The notes under the pieces were generated by a model that did no database searches, was not told where the DNA came from, and saw nothing but the letters and a program-made list of their open reading frames with translations. From Mycoplasma sp. 1018B (GTDB taxonomy: Bacteria; Bacillota_I; Bacilli_A; Mycoplasmatales; Metamycoplasmataceae): a DNA stretch of 64,000 bases. Below are positions 4,564 through 55,457 of this stretch, piece after piece (position 1 is the stretch's first letter; every line of letters starts with the position of its first letter). The stretch spans positions 62,001 to 126,000 of the forward strand of contig NZ_CP102084.1 in NCBI RefSeq assembly GCF_024582675.1, given 5' to 3'. The translations under genes and the position numbers were made by a program.

Positions 4564-5670
4564 TTATTCTTTTTTATTTTTTCTGTAAATTTCTCTAATT
4601 TCTTTCAAAGCCACTTTTTGATTATTTCTTTTAACAAATCAATAGTTAAATCCATTCAAACGCTCACTTTTACTATTATTAGCCAATGCTGCAGCCTTAT
4701 GAATATCTAAAATTTGATTATCTATTTTTAATTTAGCATCTTCAGTCAGTATAAATTTGGATTCTTCTTGATTTTTTAAATAAAATATTTCTCCTGGCGT
4801 TAAATAATTATTATTTATAAGATCTTTAAATACTACTTTAGGTGCTTTTTGATCTCAAAAAGCATTTTCTATTTTGTCTATTTTAATTTCAGTTTGATCT
4901 ATTCTTTTTTGTCCAAAATAGCAATATTTTGGATCTTTTTCTATCATAAGATAATTTCTTCCTGTTTGTTTTGCTATTTTAGCTGTTGTCATTGTTCCGG
5001 CAAAAGGATCTAAAATAATATCACCTATTTTTGATGAGATATTAATAATATAATAAAGTAATAATTCCGGTTTTTGTGTGCTATGTAATTTTTTATTATT
5101 TTCATCTTTTAAACGTTCTTTACCGTTTACTACTGGAAATTTTCAAATTGAACCTAATTGTTTACGATTTCCTTTATTAAAATTCTCTATAAATGTATTT
5201 AATTCTTTAGCTGTTTTATAATTAAAAGTATATTTAGAATTAGAACTTTTGGTGGCTCAAATTAAAGTTTCATGACTGTTTGTTAATCTAGTACCTTTAA
5301 AATTAGGTGTAGGATTAGTTTTTTGTCAAATCACATCGTTTAAAATTCAATAACCTAAATCTTGCATTATTCCACCAATAGTATAAATACATTGCATTCC
5401 TCCTATAACTCAAATAGAACCATTTTTTTTAAGTATCCGATAACATTCTTTTAATCATTCTCTTGTGAAATTATTATAATCTTGTGAGGTTGCAAACTTA
5501 TCTCATTCCTCTTTTACACCATTAAATTCTGTTCCATCTACTCTTAATAATTTACCTTTTGTTCTCATTCAATATGGAGGATCAACAAATATTAAGTCTA
5601 TACTTTCTGATGGTAATTTTTTTAATACTTTTATGCTATCATCATTTATTATTTTATTTACATCTATCAT
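4564..5670 (-). CDS. CcrM/M.HinfI-like adenine-N6 DNA methyltransferase (predicted GANTC)
   Basis: A 368-residue beta-class DNA methyltransferase. Motif IV DPPYW is at residues 30-33 and the SAM-binding motif I DPFAGTMTT is near 221-229. Long stretches match CcrM and M.HinfI, including LKKNGSIWVIG, GYWILNDVIWQKTNPTPNF, NSHETLIWA and HSTQKPE. The C-terminal ~95 residues (from APKVVFKDLI, about 274) look like the RAMA domain found at the end of CcrM-type enzymes, with LTPGE and LNGFNYWFVKR. These relatives methylate adenine in GANTC, so that specificity is the best guess. It overlaps the upstream restriction gene by 17 nt, which argues for a restriction-modification partner and not an orphan cell-cycle methylase. 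Confidence 0.85.
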
Positions 5671-6487
5671 TTTTTTCCTTTTGGTTTCTTAATTTTTTTG
5701 CCTTAGAAATATTTATATTATTTGGGAAAAATTCTTTTCTTAAATTTTTATATTTTTCATCGCTAGAAATTAATTTGTTTCATAATTTTTCTTTTAAAAC
5801 AATTAATTGTTTTAAAATTTCAGTGGATTTATCGAAATCAGGAATATAAATTACTTCATTATCTTTTTCGTTTTTATATCTTTTTAAATGATTTAATAAT
5901 TCATCTCACATTTTTTGCATTTTTAAAAAATTAAATAGTTCATTTCCATAAAATAAATAAATATTATTATTTTCTTTTTTAAAAATATCAATTTGATTTT
6001 GATAATATTTATTATTTTTTCTTAAACTAGCATCTAAAAATCACATAAAAACATATATTGTTTTATCTTTATAAATTTTAGAAATTGAATCATATTTTTT
6101 AAATAAATTATCTAATTGCCCTCTTTTTTTAGTACTATCGTGATCATCTCTTATTTTTTGTTCAATCATAAAAATTTGATTATTTTTTTCAAATAAATGG
6201 TCTATAAATAAAATTTCTTTATTATTAATAATCCTTTTTTCTAATTTATTATATTTATTAATCAAAAAATAATTTTCAATTATGTTTACTAAAAAATCTC
6301 CAAATCTTATTTCTTGACTTTGTGTTAAATTTTGTATTAATTTAGTTTTAGAATTAGTTAATCTAAATTCTCCTGTATATCTTTCAGGATATTTTATAAT
6401 ATTTTCAATCAATTTTTTATATTCTGTATCTTCTATTTTAATTTTTTCTTCTAATTTTTTGATGAATTGTTCATAACTGATATACAT
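5654..6487 (-). CDS. Type II restriction endonuclease, PD-(D/E)XK fold, probably HinfI-like
   Basis: A 277-residue protein translated just before the methylase and overlapping it. The nuclease core is readable: Asp96 in FIDH, then Glu109 and Lys111 in MIEQK, followed by a charged IRDDHDSTKKRGQ stretch. Pairing with a GANTC-type methylase suggests cutting at the same site. R.HinfI is of similar size as I recall it, but I cannot align it here, and another site with a central N such as GGNCC is possible. In-frame TGA codons (for example 6041-6043) are Trp. AAAGGA precedes the ATG. A full-length degenerate paralog lies at 29730-30641. Confidence 0.72.
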
Positions 6488-28793: not shown

Positions 28794-28896
28794 AAGACAT
28801 CCTTTCTTGTTTATTTTGTTGGTAATTGCAAAATAAAAAACCAAGAAATTAAATTGAAATAACTTCTTATTGTTATTATATTATAATGAAGGGATT

Positions 28897-28902
28897 TATA
28901 AT
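28897..28902 (+). promoter_or_regulatory. -10 box of the hydrolase gene
   Basis: TATAAT ends 7 nt before ATG 28910. A second TATAAT at 28882-28887 overlaps an upstream in-frame ATG, which argues against that ATG as the start. Confidence 0.5.
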
Positions 28903-28909
28903 ATTAAAT

Positions 28910-29740
28910 ATGTATAAAATCAATTATTTTGAAACCTTAAATATGCAAATTCCAATATATTTTCTTGACAAAAAGAGTAATACTACTTTAGTTTTTTTGC
29001 ATGGAATTAAATCCTCAATAGATTTTATTCAAAATTTAGACAAATTAATTGATAACTATAATATTTTAGCTATTAATTTACCAGGAAGTCATTATTATAA
29101 AACTCTAAATTTAGAAAATATTGATTTAAATATTTGAATAAAAATAACTAATAACATTTTAAATAAACTTAAATCTAAAAATATTATCATTTTTGCCCAT
29201 TCAATGAGTGGTGGTGTTGCTATGGGTATAAATAAGTTTAAAAATATTAAAAAAATTGTAATGTTTAATACTATTCATCCTTTTTTAGAAAAAAATATAA
29301 ATATTAATTTATCTAGTAAATTCCTTTCAAGCAAAAATATGTTTGAAAATTTATTTATAAAAGAAAAATATAAAAATAAAATGATTTCTCAATGAAATAA
29401 AGAAAAAGCTCAAAAAATTAAATATTGAATACCAATGTTAAATAAAACAATATTTAATTCTAAATATTTAGATATTTTAGAAAAACAATATATAAATAAA
29501 AAAAATTTGATAGTACCAATTGTTAGCGAAAATGATAATGTAATTAATTCAAAAAATTTACTTGCTTATTATAAAAAAATAAATCTTAATGCTAATATTA
29601 TTGGTGTTGGACATAGTCTTTCATCTATTTATAATAATGATTTAGCTAATTTAATTAATAAATTAGTTAAAGCTAAAAAACGTTGATTTTGACAAAAAAA
29701 TATTTTTAAATTAAAAAATAAAGGAAAAAATGGAATATAA
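28910..29740 (+). CDS. Alpha/beta hydrolase
   Basis: A 276-residue serine hydrolase. LVFLHGIKSS forms the oxyanion loop, AHSMSGG holds the nucleophile Ser, and GVGHSLS near residue 250 supplies the catalytic His; Asp is probably in VSENDNVI. This resembles small esterases and lipases common in mycoplasmas. The substrate is unknown. The stop overlaps the next gene by 11 nt, so the two are co-transcribed. Confidence 0.82.
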
Positions 29741-30641
29741 AAAATTCGAAGAAAATTTATTGTTATTCTTATCTAAAAATAACAGTTTAAATTTATTGTT
29801 AAAAGTATTAGATAATCCTGAAGTATATTTTTCTTTAACAAATGCTTTAAATGTTCAAATAAAAATGGAACAAACTTTTTTACGTATGCAAGAAAATAAA
29901 TATCATAAATTTATTAAAAATTTAATAGAAGAATATTTGATTAAGCAAAATTATGAAATTATGAAAAATAGAGTTATTTTAACTCATGAAGAAATTAAAA
30001 ATAATCAAAAAGAAACAATATTATTGAAATCTACATTTTCTTTTATTGCTAAAGATGAAAATAAAAAAGAATTTATCTATATTTGAGCTAAAAAAAGAGA
30101 TAATTTTTCATTAAAAAAAATAGAAATCTTATTAGAAAATTATATGTTGATAGCCAAAAAAATAATTAATTTATATCCAGATTATAAACATAAATTCTAT
30201 TTATGATTTATAGAAGAAACGGTAAAAAATAATAAAGAAAATATTTTTAATTTATTAAATAAAAATAACGAAATTAATTTTCAAGTTTGCTATGAAAACG
30301 AATTATTTAAAGAATGAAACGATATAGATTATTTTAATTCTATAAAAGAAAATCAAAAAAGATTTAAGAAAACTAATTATGCTTACTTAAATAATTTTCC
30401 TAATTTTGATAGTGATGAATCAATTTTAGAGGATTTAGTTAATTTGAGTGAAAATAGATGAAATTTATTAATGTCACCAGTCAAGATTTATGAGCAATTA
30501 AGAAATAATTTATTTAATTTAAATAATTCTAATTCTAACTTTTATAAAGCTATTAAATTAAGAGAATTAAAAATACTGGCTGTTGATGAAGAAGATTATA
30601 AAAATAAAAAAATTGCTTTTTTAGAAAAAAATAATATTTAG
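29730..30641 (+). CDS. Degenerate paralog of the HinfI-like restriction endonuclease, probably inactive
   Basis: A 303-residue protein similar over nearly its whole length to the endonuclease at 5654-6487. The N-terminal region aligns without gaps for about 40 residues at an offset of four, with shared PE-Y, QE, F--N-IE-Y. The C-terminal region also aligns gaplessly (FPNFD...WN.L...Y..LR) with about 16 identities in 40. The catalytic centre does not: Glu109-Gln-Lys111 becomes Trp119-Ala-Lys121 in IYIWAKKRDN, and the first Asp is gone. It keeps RD and the basic stretch. It has no methylase next to it and is coupled to an alpha/beta hydrolase. A DNA- or protein-binding role is possible but unknown. 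Confidence 0.65.
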
Positions 30642-30711
30642 AAATTAGTTTTAATATGTTATAAAATTTAGAATATAAAAAATATATTTATATATTTTTA
30701 AGGAGATTAAT

Positions 30712-31452
30712 ATGGCCGGACATTCAAAATGAGCTAATATAAAACATCGCAAAGGCGCACAAGATGCTGCTCGTGGAAAAATATTCCAAAAATTATTTAA
30801 AGAAATCTATGTTGCTGCTACTCTACCAGCTGGAGCTGATCCTGATACTAATCCATCTTTAAAACTTGCTATTTCTAAAGCTAAAAGTAAAAATATGCCT
30901 AAGGCAAATATTGAAAGAGCATTAGCAAAAGCTAAAGGAGAAAGTAAAGAAGGTTCTAGTTTTGTTGAGACATTATTTAATGCTACAATCACTGGTGGGG
31001 CAACATTTTTAATTAAAACTTTAAGCGATAACATGAATAGAACTAAATCACAAATGACAATGTATTTTAATAGACAAAATGCAATTCTAGGCAAAACAGG
31101 GCAAATTCCTTTTCAATTTGATCATAAAGGAATTTTGGAAATAAGTAAAAATAATATTGATGAGGAAAATTTAACATTGGTAGCATTAGATAATGGAGCT
31201 GAAGATATAGAAATTACTGAAGAAAGTTATGTTATTACAACTTTACCAGAAAATTTTACTCAATGTAAAATTGCGTTAGAAGATGCTCTTAATATAAGTG
31301 ATTTTTTACAATGTGAAGTTACTTATTTACCTAATTCAACAGTTAGTTTTGATGCAGAAAAAACTCAAAAATTAAGTGAATTTATTGATTTGTTAGAAGA
31401 TGATGATGATGTTCAAGAAGTATTTCACAATATTGAATTAAATATAGAATAA
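30712..31452 (+). CDS. yebC: YebC/PmpR-family protein
   Basis: A 246-residue protein starting [24 protein letters not shown], the diagnostic N-terminus. MPKANIERALAKAKGE and the acidic C-terminal third follow. YebC proteins act in transcription regulation or, by recent work, in easing ribosome stalling at proline stretches. AAGGAG lies just before the ATG. The ZIP gene starts 3 nt after its stop, so they form an operon. Confidence 0.93.
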
Positions 31453-47426: not shown

Positions 47427-50400
47427 TTAACCTTTCAATAATTGAATAGCTTTTATTTTTCCAATTGAATATCATGTTAAAAATGTAGTTATTAAGAAAA
47501 TAATAAAGAACGTTAATGAAACAATAGCTACATACGAGAATTTTAGAGATATCATTAGAGCAATTGAACCAGCTTGCAACATAAATATATTGAACAAGTA
47601 TATAAGTAATAAAACAGCAGGTATGGAAATTAAGATTGCTAGAATAATAAATGGAATAAATATTGAGAAAAACATTCTTATTTTTTCTTTTTCTGAATAT
47701 CCAAGAATAGATCAAATGGCAATATTCTTTTTATTTTCATTAATAATGATTGTTGAAATAATAACAAGAATAGTTAATGATATTAAAATTGTTATTCAAA
47801 TAATACCTGTAGTAACATCATTAACTGTTTGTCCAATTTTGCTAACAAAACTAACTTCTATATCTTTAGCATCTAAATTTGAAGCTAATAATGAATATAA
47901 GGTATTATCATAAATATTAGCAAATCTATTAACAATATCTTTAGCATTTGTTAAATTTGCTTCAAATATATTATCAACGTCTTTATTATTATTTTCAGTA
48001 TTTGGTTCTAAGAAATTAATTAATTTTTCTTGAGCTTCTTGCAGAGAAAAATTATTTTTTTGTAAATTGGTTACAAATAAACCACCGTGAGGATCAAAAA
48101 TACTTTTATACATAGCTGAAGCATCATTATCAGTAGTATTAAATGAAGTTAGAATTGATCAATAATTACTTGGAGAATAAAGTGAAGTAGAATTAATAAT
48201 TTGTTTTGGTGTATTTGAATTAGTTAAAATACCATTAAAAGGGACAAAATTATTTAATTCGCTAGGAACAATATCTTTTAATCCTGTTAAGTTGTTTGCT
48301 ATTGATTGACTAGTAATCATTTCTTCATTTATAAAAGTAGAGTTAATACCAACTATTTCAAATTGATAGGTTAATTCTCTTTTATTATCAAGAATTTTAT
48401 CTAAATAACGATTAGTATGATTTTGAATTTCTAAATCAATTATTTGGCCTTCTTTTCATTTATTTTTCTTAGCAACAACTTCGTTTATTATTAAAGGATA
48501 AACATTTTCTTTATTATATTGTTTTAAACGGTCAAATAAATCATTATTAGAACTATCAGTTAGTTTAACATATTTTGAATTTAAATTATAGCCGTTAATA
48601 TATCCTTTATTAGTTTGAATATATGTAAAAGTCTCGTCCATGTTTTTATCAAAATAAACTCCACTAAAACTAATAAAATAGTCATTAATAGTTGGTTCAG
48701 TTTTGATTAAATTAGAATTTAATGTTTCTTGGTCAATTTTATTTTGCAATTCTTTATATGCTTCTACTAAGAATTCACGATATTCATTTCTTAAATCTGT
48801 GGTTAAAGTTATTGCATTATATTCTTTACCGTTTCATTGCATATAAACAAAATGGCCATTATTATCATTAAATAAATTAGTAAATTTAAAATAATTTTTA
48901 ATTTCAGAATGATTATTTTCATTCACATATAATAATTCATCATTTTTATTAGGATTATTAATAAAAATGTATTTGTTATTATCAATTATTTTGTTATTTT
49001 GTGTTTCTTCTAATAAATTACCTACTATTTTTCTTGAAGAATCAATTTTTGATTTTTGCGTATCTGGTAAAGAATTATATGAAATATCTCATGGGTTAAT
49101 TGATACACCACTAGCCAATGTTAAATCTAAACTAAATTGAGTAATAACATGAGGATCTAAAATAGTAGGATTACCATTTTTATTGTCTGCGTTGACAATT
49201 GGTGAATAACCAGGCGCAAGATAATTTCATAATTCCTGTTGAATTTCTGAAGAAGATCCTAATGGTGTATAAAGTAAATTTTTCAAATTAGAACCATTAA
49301 ATGTTTTGTATAAACCGGCCTCAATAGTAGGAGTTTGTAAATTTAATTTATATTTGTAATTTCTGTTATTGTAAGTTAAATTTATAGTGTTATTAAATAC
49401 TCCTCTATTTGAAACTCCAAATAAAGCAGAAGTAGTTACTAAAATTACACTAATAACAAAGGATAATAATTTTCAAATTCCAATGTAACTTAAAATAAAA
49501 GAAAAACGTGTTTTAATATTAAATTTTGATATTTTAGCACTATATCAATAAAATAATTTTTTTGTAGGTAAAAATTGAGAACCATTTATTAAAGTTAATG
49601 GTTTAATTCTTAATGAAATTAAGGTAATTATGTAGATAATAGTTGCCATGATGAAACACGGTGTAACGATTGTTAAAACAGCAGCTATAGGATTAAATAA
49701 TAATGTGTTTTTTGGTAAGGTTCAATAACCAGAAAATGTTTCTAAAACTAAAAACTGCATTCTATTACCTATGGCATATCCAATAGCCCCTCCAATTATT
49801 GCAGTAGTAATTGCAAAAACAGATAGTGATAAAGCTATTTGGGTTCGAGTATATCCTTGGGCTATTAAAATACCTAAAACTTTATTTTTACTGTTAATAT
49901 ATCTTTGAATAATGAAAATAATTGAAACAATCACTAAGAAACTAAATAATAAAACTAAAGCTGTTGTAGAAACAGAAATGATTTTTATAATATTAGTAAT
50001 AGTATTTATTCTTAAAGCTCTTTCAGGATTAATTAAATCAGTTTCATTATTAAGAAAAACTCTTTCTATATTATTAGCATTTACAATTGAATTGTCAACA
50101 ATTGTTTTTATTTCATTTTTTAATTCTTTAATATTTGAATTTTCCGGAGCTTTTACTAACAAATTATCTTTAACTACATTGCCTGCATATGCAGCTTTTA
50201 CTCTATCAAAACCAAGATTATTAACATATACTAGCGCTTGATGTTTAGTATCAACTTGTAAATTATTTTCATCTATAACAGGATACATATAATCAACTGT
50301 AGTTTCTTCACCGATGATAATAAATTTTAATCCGTTAATGTTAATTAAATATTCTTCAGGGATATTAGCTGTAAAATCTTTAGTAACACCGATTCAATTT

Positions 50401-53400
50401 GGTAATAATATATCTATAGGAATTTTCCCGTTATAAATTTTTTTATTATTATTTACTAAGAAAGCAAAATTCACTTTAGATAAGAAATATTTTGGCAACT
50501 GAAAAGCGACATAATCAGTATTAATTTCTTCAAAAATTTTGTTTAAAACATCATATTGAATTTGTAAAACGTCAATTCCAAAAATAGGTTTAGTATTTAA
50601 ATTTTTAGTATGTTCAAATCAACTAAAATCAATTGTAATATTTTCACCATTGTCTTCTTTAAATGATTGTATTTGATTGAACTCTTTATTTAAATGTTGT
50701 GATAATTCTTCATAAAGTAAAGTATTAGTAGGTGAATTTTTTTTACCTAAAATTTCTAAATTTGTTCTTTTGTTTAAAACTAAATAAGCCAAATTGCCAT
50801 TTATTTGGTTATTATCATTAATACTAGTTTGTGTTTGAGAAACTAAATAAGATAATGCTATTTCTGGAAAAAGTAATCTTAACACAGGATTTAATAATGT
50901 TGAAGAGATACCAATTATATCTGTAGGTAAATATGTATTAATTTGATTTGCTAAATTAACAGCAATAAATCTAATATCAAAAAATTCACTTGTTTGTAAA
51001 TAATTTTCAATAAAATTATTAATCAAAATATAATATGCACTAGTTTTAGGATTATTTACATCTATAGAACTATATTTAACACTTTGAGCAAAATAACCTA
51101 ATTGCAAAATCAATTCTAATTGGTGAGTTAAAACAAAATTTTTAAATTTAGGATTAATATCAATTAATTGCTTAACTGCTAAATTTTTAAATTCATTATT
51201 TATATTCAATTCAAAAATATCAATGGATAGTGGTTGATTAATAAATTTATTTATAGAATAATTTGTAGAATTATTAAAAGGTATATTTGTGCTGTTATCT
51301 TCTTGTTTACTTAAAGCTAAAATTTCATTAGAAATAGCGAATTCAATAAAATCTTTAACAAATTTATTTGTTTCTTCAAAAGTCGCATTTTCTAATTGAT
51401 ACATTTTTAAATAAGGAGTAAATAAATTAAAAGCTTGGTTAGCAATGCTGTATTGATTTATTTGTTTTGTTGGTATTAAATTATCAATAATTGATTTTAA
51501 TAATAACCTAAATGAATTTCCCGAATAGAAATTTTTAGCGTCATTTAATAAATCTGCTCCAGTTTTTAATTTAGTATCAGTTACAAAATTAACTCCACCA
51601 ATAGCTTGATTAAGGAATAAAATTATCTTATCTATTTTATCAAGAATATAATTTTTATTAAAATCAGAATTTATATTTAAATAAAAGTTTAATAAATTTT
51701 GTTCATTAAGCGTTAATTTTCTAAATTCAATAGTATCTAAACTATTTTTTGTTAAATTATTTTTTAATGATAAAAATTCTAATATTAAATTTCGTGTTGA
51801 ACTATTTATTTGATTTTCATTACCGTTAGTAACATTATAACTTTTATCATCTTGATTTAAAAGAGATAATAAATCATAAAAAGATATTTTTTCATCATCT
51901 TTAGCTGGAATTCATACAGTTTGATTATCATAATTAAAAGATGTAGTTTTGCCTGATAAATTTAAAAAAGTAATAATATTTTCTTTAAAACCTTTATCAG
52001 ATCCTATTGCATGAAACAAACTTTCTATACTTAAAGTTATTAATTTGGCTTTATCTAGATATAAGATATTAAATTTATTATCATTATTAAAATTTATTAA
52101 TTTAAAATTAGTATTAAATTGTTCAATGAAATAAAAGAAATCAAAGTAATTTATAATATTTTTTAAACCGTTTTTAAAATTATCAAAACTATTATTAATT
52201 TTTAATTTGTTTATTATTGAATAAAGATTTGAATTTCAATTGTAATTAGTTAAAAATGTATTTATTAAAGAATTAGTATTATTAGCTAATAAATTTTCAA
52301 AATTTAAATTATCAATTAAATTTAATAATGCTGTTTGTAAATTTTTGGCTTTAATATTAGGTATTAAAAGATTTAATATTCTATTTAAGCTAAAAATTTC
52401 TTGTGTTTCACTTTGTATATTTTCTTGATATCAATTTAATAACTGTTTAGCAAAATTTTTAGTATCTATTGAATTAATTATTTCTTGAATAAAATCAAAA
52501 AGTTTTACAGGATCATTTATGTAATTTACAAATATTTTGCCATAATTATAATTTTGATTGCTTTTTGAATTATTTAATTTATTGAATAATAAGAATAGAT
52601 TATCAATTTGTTCTGCTAAATATTCTTTTTGTTTTTCTAAGCTTTTTATTGTTGAAATTTCTTTTTTTATAGCATCAATAAAATCATTAATTAAAATATT
52701 TAAAAGATCTCCGTTATTATGATTAGTTAAATAAAAAATTATTTTAGTTAAAAAATCATTTATTGTTTTAGAATATATTTTTCCTGTGGTTAATACAGAA
52801 GCTAAATTTACATCATCTAATGCTGTTTCTAAAAGAGGAATAATTTTATAAATAATATTAGATTTAATATAACCTTTTTTAACAATATCTAAATCTACAA
52901 TAATTTTTTCGCCTTCTTTTACTAACGGTGCAATACTATTGTTTTTTAATACTAATTGATTTAATTCATTTTTAATTGAAACAAATGCAAGTGGGATATA
53001 TGCTTTATCATTTGAATATTTAACTCAACCTGTATCTTCAGTTCTTATATATTTTGTTGCTATTGTAAGATTATTATCCTCAAATCATTTATTTAGATAA
53101 TTTATTGAAACGCCTTTTTCTCAATCTTGATTAGGATAAAGAGAATAATATTTAATTTGATTGTTTTCTATTATTTCTTTAACCAAAAAGAATTTTTTAT
53201 CTACTTCATATATTGCTAAATTTAATTCTTTATAATTTGGCAAATCATCGTGTTTTTTTATTTGATTTTGATTTTGTTGATATTTATTTAATCAAATAAT
53301 TTTTTTGTTAGTTAAATTAGAAATTTCTCCAGTATAAATATTGTTATCATAAATATTTACATAATCAATAACTGTTTTAATATAATTTTTATTAACATAT

Positions 53401-55457
53401 TGATTTTGTTGAATTTCTAAAATTAATTTAGCGGCCACAATTGGTGGAACTTGGAATGTGTTAAAAATATTTAAATGTGTTGGGAAATTATTTAATGCAG
53501 TTGGATTAAATAATTCATTGTAAAGTTTACCCACATTAAGTTCTATACCTTCAACTTCCCTTTTATCATCCCCTGCATTTATAAAATGATAAACATTCTT
53601 TGCACCGTCATTGTCTACAGCATCAACGGTTATTGTTCTTCTTAAACCAATATTATCTTTTCCAACAAGCTTTTCTATTTTATCAACGATACTATTTCTA
53701 GTAAATTTTAAAGAATTGTTTTGAATTATTTCAAATTTTTTATCTTTAACATTTTGTTGGCTAATCGAATTATAAAATTCTATATCATTATTTAATAAAT
53801 CATCTTTTAAATAAGGATTATTATATTTTTCAATTTCTTTTATATTCATTGAATTTATTTGTTCAATAAAATATTTATTTCTATTTTCATTAGTAATTGG
53901 CAAAGTTCTTTTATCGTTTGTAAATAACTTAACAAAATTTAAATCTAAAAAATCAAAATTAGGATTTAGTTGTACAATTGTTTCACGTTCAAAAATTGGT
54001 TTATTTTGTAATTTTCATTGATTATTTTCATATATATATTTAAATCCTGTTTCAGTTCTTTTTTTAGTTCAATAAGAAAAAATTTCAATATCATCTCATA
54101 TTAAATTTCTATTTGTTATTTCAGAAGAACCAAGATTTTCAATAAATGTTTTATAAGATCCTGTCCATAAATCTTTTGCATATATTTTTTCATCAACAAT
54201 TTCGATGCTATTATCTTCTTTTACGATTCTTTTTGGAATGGAAGATAATAGTTTATCAACGTAACTAATATAATAATTTGTTCTTAAAAAATTATTTTTA
54301 CTTCTAAGATTAATAATTCAATTTTGATCTAAACCATAATTTTCATTTGTTATAAATTTATAAGTGAGATCTGAATTAACATAATTATTATTTTCATCAA
54401 TTAATAATTTAGCAAAAAATTCTTTTCTAAACTTAGTTGAACTATCAAAATTATCAAAAGGAGCTATCATTAAAATATTTGATAAATCTTTGTTTTCGAT
54501 TTTTTTATAAAGATAATTATCATTATTTACTTTATCAAATCCAAGTAATTTCATTATTTTAATTGGTTCAATTCTAATTGCTTGTTGTTCATCAATTCAT
54601 TTATTACCTAAAGAAAAATTTAATGTAGCAGTATTAGTGTAAACATTAATAAAAATAGGACTTACTTGTGAAGCTAAAATATTATTAGCATTATCAGTAG
54701 TTAATCTTAATAAATCATTAATCTGATAATCTTTATCAAAAACAATTAAAGATTCTAAATCAATTGTTTTCTTTGTTTGCTTTTTCTTATATTGATTATT
54801 ATTTGTTAATTCATAGAGATTTAAATTAAAATTGTTATTAATAATTTTAAAATATGGATTATTTATATCATTAATATTTAAAATAATATTTTCTAAAAAA
54901 TTAGAATTATTAAAAAAATTTTGTAAATCGCTTTTTGCAAAATATAAATTTTTAAATTGTTCTAAATCTTTGTGTTTTATATTATTTGCTGGAATAAAAT
55001 CAGTATTAATATTTTCAAAACTTAGTGTATTAGTTCCTATAGGATCATTTTTATAAGAATTTATAATATTATCTAATTCAATTTTTTGAGTTTGATTTAA
55101 TTGTTTTTTTCATTCTAAAAATGCAGAATTATGAAAAGATTTTTCAAAGTCAATAGAATATTCTATAGGTGAATAATTTGCATTATTTCCTTTTGTGTTT
55201 AATTCATAACTACTTTCTCCATTGATGAAATAACCTCCATTAAATGCAAAACCATTATTTGGCAAGTTTAAATCAACATTAATATCGTGCAATTTAGAAA
55301 AATTTTTATAATTTTCAAAACTTCTAGTCATTGAATTTTTTACACTAGTTAATAAAGTAAAAATTGCACTAGTTAAAAAAACTAATATACTTAATCCTAT
55401 AACCATGACTTTATTTTTACTTAATGATTTAAATACTTCTTTAAATAATCTTCACAT
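47427..55457 (-). CDS. Giant FtsX/MacB-type ABC transporter permease
   Basis: A single 2676-residue frame (8031 nt) when TGA is Trp; I checked the frame across its listed segments, not every codon. One TM helix near 18-40 is followed by an extracytoplasmic part of about 1750 residues. Then come an FtsX domain (helices about 1819-1851, GILIAQGYTRTQIALSLSVFA, and more to about 1960), a second TM and ectodomain (about 1990-2530), and a final FtsX domain ending WYSIGKIKAIQLLKG. It pairs with the ATPase that follows. Such systems pump or release exported proteins, lipids or peptides; the substrate is unknown. Confidence 0.8.

Follow-up and report, generated by a model that had tools for sequence, protein, structure and literature searches.

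The window analysed here, a stretch of 64,000 nucleotides, contains a gene for a full-length member of the HpyAIV family of type II restriction enzymes whose catalytic motif has been lost (Table 1). The gene belongs to a group of single origin that is present throughout one Mycoplasmopsis subclade, where it is under purifying selection and holds a conserved place beside a gene for an alpha/beta hydrolase. We tentatively regard its product as a pseudo-restriction enzyme that has a binding or scaffold role without catalysis and probably works with the hydrolase.

Table 1. Features of the window discussed in the text (positions are those of the window).
Feature	Position	Strand	Remarks
Putatively catalytically dead HpyAIV-family (type II restriction enzyme-like) protein	29730..30641	+	303 aa, code 4
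Q54-E55-N56	29889..29897	+	on long predicted helix
S104	30039..30041	+	position of first catalytic Asp (D96 in active enzyme)
W119-A120-K121-K122-R123-D124	30084..30101	+	remnant of E-x-K-x-R-D; Glu lost
Site of D-H-D-S-x-K-K-x-G block	30102..30131	+	(nearly) invariant in active enzymes, replaced in dead clade
Alpha/beta hydrolase	28886..29740	+	Ser/Asp/His triad; stop overlaps start of dead gene (29730)
yebC-family gene	30712..31452	+	next conserved neighbour
Intact HpyAIV-family endonuclease with D..E-x-K	5654..6487	-	comparison homologue; GANTC, HpyAIV/HinfI-like
CcrM-like N6-adenine methylase	4564..5670	-	partner of active endonuclease
Largest open reading frame of the window	47427-55457	-	2676 aa

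The open reading frame begins with ATG and contains four TGA codons for tryptophan. BLASTP aligned its product with the intact endonuclease of the same window at 73/260 identities (28%, E = 6e-16), and a profile-profile comparison between alignments of the dead and active groups gave E = 1.5e-37 across 272 columns; by these sequence comparisons the homology is far above chance. Both proteins are recognised by the NCBIfam model of the HpyAIV family (NF045832, cut-off 160), with 271.9 bits for the endonuclease and 195.7 bits for the dead protein, whose match spans positions 1-269 and covers the full model above the curated cut-off. All 29 dead members are in fact recognised by this 'equivalog' model (alignment A2). 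The first-pass annotation, which had described a full-length homologue of the HinfI-like endonuclease, was correct on this point, and profile searching places the two proteins in one family. In Pfam neither of them scored above any family cut-off. In the PDB, sequence searches with the dead protein by itself and with its family profile retrieved no relatives; those with the active-family profile gave weak, unrelated and partial matches only.

The catalytic residues were also read correctly in that annotation (Glu-x-Lys turned into Trp-Ala-Lys, first Asp gone, RD kept). Compared with the endonuclease of the window, D96 is replaced by S104 and E109 by W119, while K111 corresponds to K121 and R113-D114 are retained as R123-D124. 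The whole family divides in the same way: active enzymes carry D, E, K, R, D, D, H, D and S at the motif positions in 18/18 cases, and an acid at the first catalytic Asp and at the ExK Glu is kept in 18/18 active but 0/29 dead members, so that 'dead' is an apt label by motif for the entire clade. The position of the catalytic Lys is occupied by K in 17 and R in 12 of the dead proteins, and conservation has disappeared from the DDHDS block and the subsequent K, K, G, N and K positions. The motif thus lacks its Asp and Glu, in many members also its Lys, and the conserved block behind it has disappeared, from which we infer that the dead protein no longer cuts DNA.

AlphaFold2 models built from within-family alignments reached a pLDDT of 92 for the dead and 91 for the active protein. 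The dead model comprises a helix (42-72), strands (81-121), a second helix (128-148) and a further strand (153-160), in which the core PD-(D/E)XK nuclease fold is present. Its top VIA-align match was the type II endonuclease EcoO109I (Z = 10.3, 197 residues, 4.8 A), which also led the PDB matches of the active model (Z = 9.7, 224 residues, 5.7 A, with other nuclease folds within one Z unit). With one leading match for both models, the different folds that the first-pass annotation had named as a refutation were not seen. Foldseek returned no match at E <= 0.001 for either model; the link to this fold is based on the VIA-align Z scores together with the sequence homology to the active family.

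We searched 61 genomes of the genus for family members, sorted these into dead and active by motif, and found members in 33 of them. The dead type is represented by 29 proteins in 27 genomes, all from one Mycoplasmopsis subclade (named carriers include M. agalactiae, M. bovis, M. iners, M. primatum, M. lipofaciens, M. felifaucium and M. opalescens), and by none in the remaining 34 genomes searched. When the genomes are ranked by their match to the ParE/GyrB protein of the window, the top 27 are precisely the carriers, and these form one clade in the ParE/GyrB tree (27/27 versus 0/33 others, SH-aLRT = 98), from which one non-carrier genome is omitted, having no ParE match above threshold. This distribution is explained by one gain and no loss. 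In a phylum-wide draw of 392 genomes the dead type did not occur beyond the genus; full-length family members there retain E-x-K, the others being fragments or weak matches.

The dead and active groups separate at 100/100 in a maximum-likelihood tree that includes 30 dead rows, one of them (L057_12) on a very long branch, and no outgroup. As this family tree is unrooted, the descent of the dead gene from a mycoplasma endonuclease by duplication is not established, and the first-pass proposal that it arose by duplication of the endonuclease of the window is left unsupported. One carrier (G001) has two additional copies of the dead gene, 97% identical, outside the usual neighbourhood (L056:3094-3957 and L057:3177-4040). 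The same genome encodes a relative that is very divergent and reads R-K-S-D at the motif (L057:8282-9178), near genes for an N6/N4 methylase, a RuvB-like ATPase and a DUF4116 repeat protein.

The full-length frame of the dead gene is intact in 27/27 genomes. Among close pairs, dN/dS amounted to 0.06-0.20 for the dead gene, 0.07-0.15 for nadE and 0.04-0.14 for the hydrolase, ratios that are rough since dS exceeds 1 in some pairs. The dead gene is hence under purifying selection, similar to that on nadE. Since it is kept in 27/27 genomes, mostly in the same neighbourhood and under strong selection, its product must do some job other than cutting.

The typical gene order among relatives is hydrolase, dead gene, nadE and yebC. 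The hydrolase adjoins the dead gene in 20/27 carriers, with a gap of -23 to +16 nt in the 11 pairs measured, and lies elsewhere in one (G081); together with the overlap of the two genes in the window, this amounts to an operon-like arrangement in most relatives, much as first annotated. The orthologous hydrolase is missing in 6/27 (G025, G035, G063, G064, G075 and G078), G075 having no detectable hydrolase homologue, and it occurs without the dead gene in two genomes outside the clade (G060 and G026). Co-occurrence of the two genes is pronounced (21/27 versus 2/34, Fisher P = 4e-9, with no correction for ancestry). The hydrolase triad (H-S-M-x-G, an E/D-x-D motif, and G-H-S or T-H-S/N-H-S) is conserved in 12 aligned orthologues; the score with PF00561 is 20.9, below the cut-off of 25.8. 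Alignment of the orthologues suggests that translation of the hydrolase really begins at an internal Met, some eight codons downstream from the start of the listed frame (28886-28909). In the window, nadE is missing from its usual place between the dead gene and yebC (30642-30711), and this genome has a single nadE match, short and broken, that scores below the family cut-off (G000:C1:432267-432545).

Evolutionary rates of the dead gene and the hydrolase covary (r = 0.54-0.58), and with all species included no other pair does so more strongly. However, CdsA, an unrelated fast-evolving control, also covaries with the dead gene (r = 0.35-0.59); a hydrolase-specific covariation was accordingly rejected, and the signal is counted as suggestive only.

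A CcrM-like (GANTC-type) methylase adjoins 18/18 active endonucleases. No dead gene, including that of the window, has an adjacent methylase of its own, as had been remarked for the latter; the neighbours are the hydrolase, nadE or yebC. In the carriers G063 and G064 the dead gene has an intact GANTC-type restriction-modification pair nearby, which follows yebC directly (L054:2250-4188 and L055:6127-8065). Between these two genomes dS is 0.07 for the endonuclease and 0.04 for the methylase, versus 0.15 for the dead gene and 0.22 for nadE, as if the restriction-modification pair had been shared recently. In three genomes (G027, G019 and G068; loci L062, L063 and L061) an active-type endonuclease is found in fragments, with a methylase whole or partly left. 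A GANTC methylase is present in 12/27 carriers versus 6/34 other genomes (P = 0.03), a difference that carries no ancestry correction and is not relied on.

Sequence, tree and synteny show that catalysis was lost a single time by an HpyAIV-family endonuclease, no later than in the ancestor of one Mycoplasmopsis subclade, and that the gene settled beside that of the serine-type hydrolase and nadE-yebC. The old endonuclease fold would most likely serve a non-catalytic binding or scaffold role, the protein being produced along with the hydrolase, which it would probably assist in genomes that have both. Some additional, hydrolase-independent job may exist, because six species keep the dead gene alone. 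We hold the hydrolase-linked role with less confidence than the loss of nuclease activity. In its widest form, in which, across a whole mycoplasma lineage, the scaffold of a type II restriction enzyme has permanently joined a serine hydrolase as its non-catalytic partner, outside nucleic-acid cutting, the proposal is possible but doubtful.

A non-cutting DNA-binding protein, such as a transcription or nucleoid factor that has kept the endonuclease groove and possibly recognises GANTC or a relaxed site, is a conceivable alternative, though we think it rather unlikely. The fold is retained, several basic residues are conserved (K213, R258 and R278), and GANTC is methylated in all tested strains of M. 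agalactiae by the orphan methylase MAG6680, no endonuclease being listed (PMC9465063). However, the dead clade is mostly acidic, with a median pI of 5.45 versus 8.78 and a median net charge of -6 versus +4.5 in active enzymes (P = 2e-6, uncorrected), although the window's own copy, at +4, is unlike most of the clade. Moreover, R42, Q56, G63 and the DDHDS..KK..G..N..K block, (nearly) invariant in active enzymes, are lost, and 15/27 carrier genomes have no full-length GANTC-type methylase. The first-pass annotation had suggested a repurposed enzyme that binds DNA or modulates restriction: repurposing is supported, and DNA binding is weakened by the acidic shift and by the missing block after ExK. 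A protein that modulates the resident HpyAIV-like endonuclease, perhaps as a dominant-negative subunit, is disfavoured further still and strikes us as very improbable. It would suit the window genome, which has both genes, and G063 and G064 with their pair after yebC, but an intact family endonuclease occurs in only 5/27 carriers and is lacking in the other 22, while three genomes have an intact endonuclease and no dead gene (Fisher P = 0.45 for the association). Relative to that annotation, conservation now is the stronger element, and DNA binding, restriction and origin by duplication are the weaker ones.

Could the protein still cut through a rearranged site, made of E55, K121/K122 and D124? 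We consider this unlikely. Catalytic residues are known to have migrated in the PD-(D/E)XK superfamily, which lends the idea support, and E55, K122 and D124 are invariant in 29/29 dead members, as is Q54; E55 is shared by 18/18 active enzymes as well, and K122 is strictly kept clade-wide next to K121, whose own position is the variable one. Yet the motif has lost the two carboxylates that bind metal, and in the nearby sequence no other acid is conserved that could replace them. In the active enzymes, Val or Ile stands at the position of K122, and D124 occurs as a non-motif residue. A decaying, functionless relic is the least credible explanation of all. The window copy is indeed divergent (branch length 1.13), with the clade-conserved R32, W202 and K246 among the residues changed, but its genome is also fast in ParE (0.16 versus 0.08 for its sister), and a relic is already contradicted by the intact frames, the conserved synteny and the dN/dS of the relatives.

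We found no paper describing the dead gene in a literature search that included locus tags of M. agalactiae and M. bovis. A match of the G027 methylase (890592-891686) to ORF 0766 (890583-891707) of a transposon study (PMC4045577) makes it very probable that this carrier is M. bovis PG45. Between ORF 0749 (874811) and ORF 0766, the transposon table of that study has no entry in the dead gene or the hydrolase (881.8-883.6 kb); the library comprises 129 disrupted genes and is far from saturated (PMC4045577).

Gain and loss of restriction enzymes are usually rapid. In this case, however, a dead one has persisted in all sampled species of a lineage that has very small genomes and includes the M. 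bovis and M. agalactiae group. The clean split between dead and active members, with one apparent gain, makes the family a test case for a nuclease fold turning non-catalytic. Annotation by NF045832 would credit the carriers with a restriction enzyme, and correcting this label matters for counts of defence systems.

Among known systems, EcoO109I (PDB 1WTD/1WTE) is the leading VIA-align match of both models; unlike the dead protein, it is an active endonuclease, and it has another specificity, 9-11% identity and poor coverage of the C-terminal helices. With the HpyAIV family (NF045832, GANTC) the dead clade shares full-length homology and predicted fold, and every dead member matches the model, but it lacks the Asp, the Glu, the DDHDS block and the methylase partner, often has Arg in place of the Lys, is mostly acidic and occupies a conserved syntenic place. 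Precedents for a nuclease-type core of this kind outside restriction are the N-terminal domains of RPB5, in RNA polymerases, and of YqgP. Chains of RNA polymerase subunit E were found lower in the list of VIA-align matches of both models, as was, for the active model, the YqgP domain (6R0J), whose fold is type II endonuclease-like (PMC7231995). The likeness of RPB5 and YqgP to the dead protein would be one of fold only, with middling Z scores, and their lineages and partners are unrelated. Finally, MAG6680, the CcrM-like orphan GANTC methylase of M. agalactiae, is likewise half of a restriction-modification pair within a core genome (PMC9465063), but it keeps its methylase activity, whereas the dead gene represents the endonuclease-type half without its catalytic motif.
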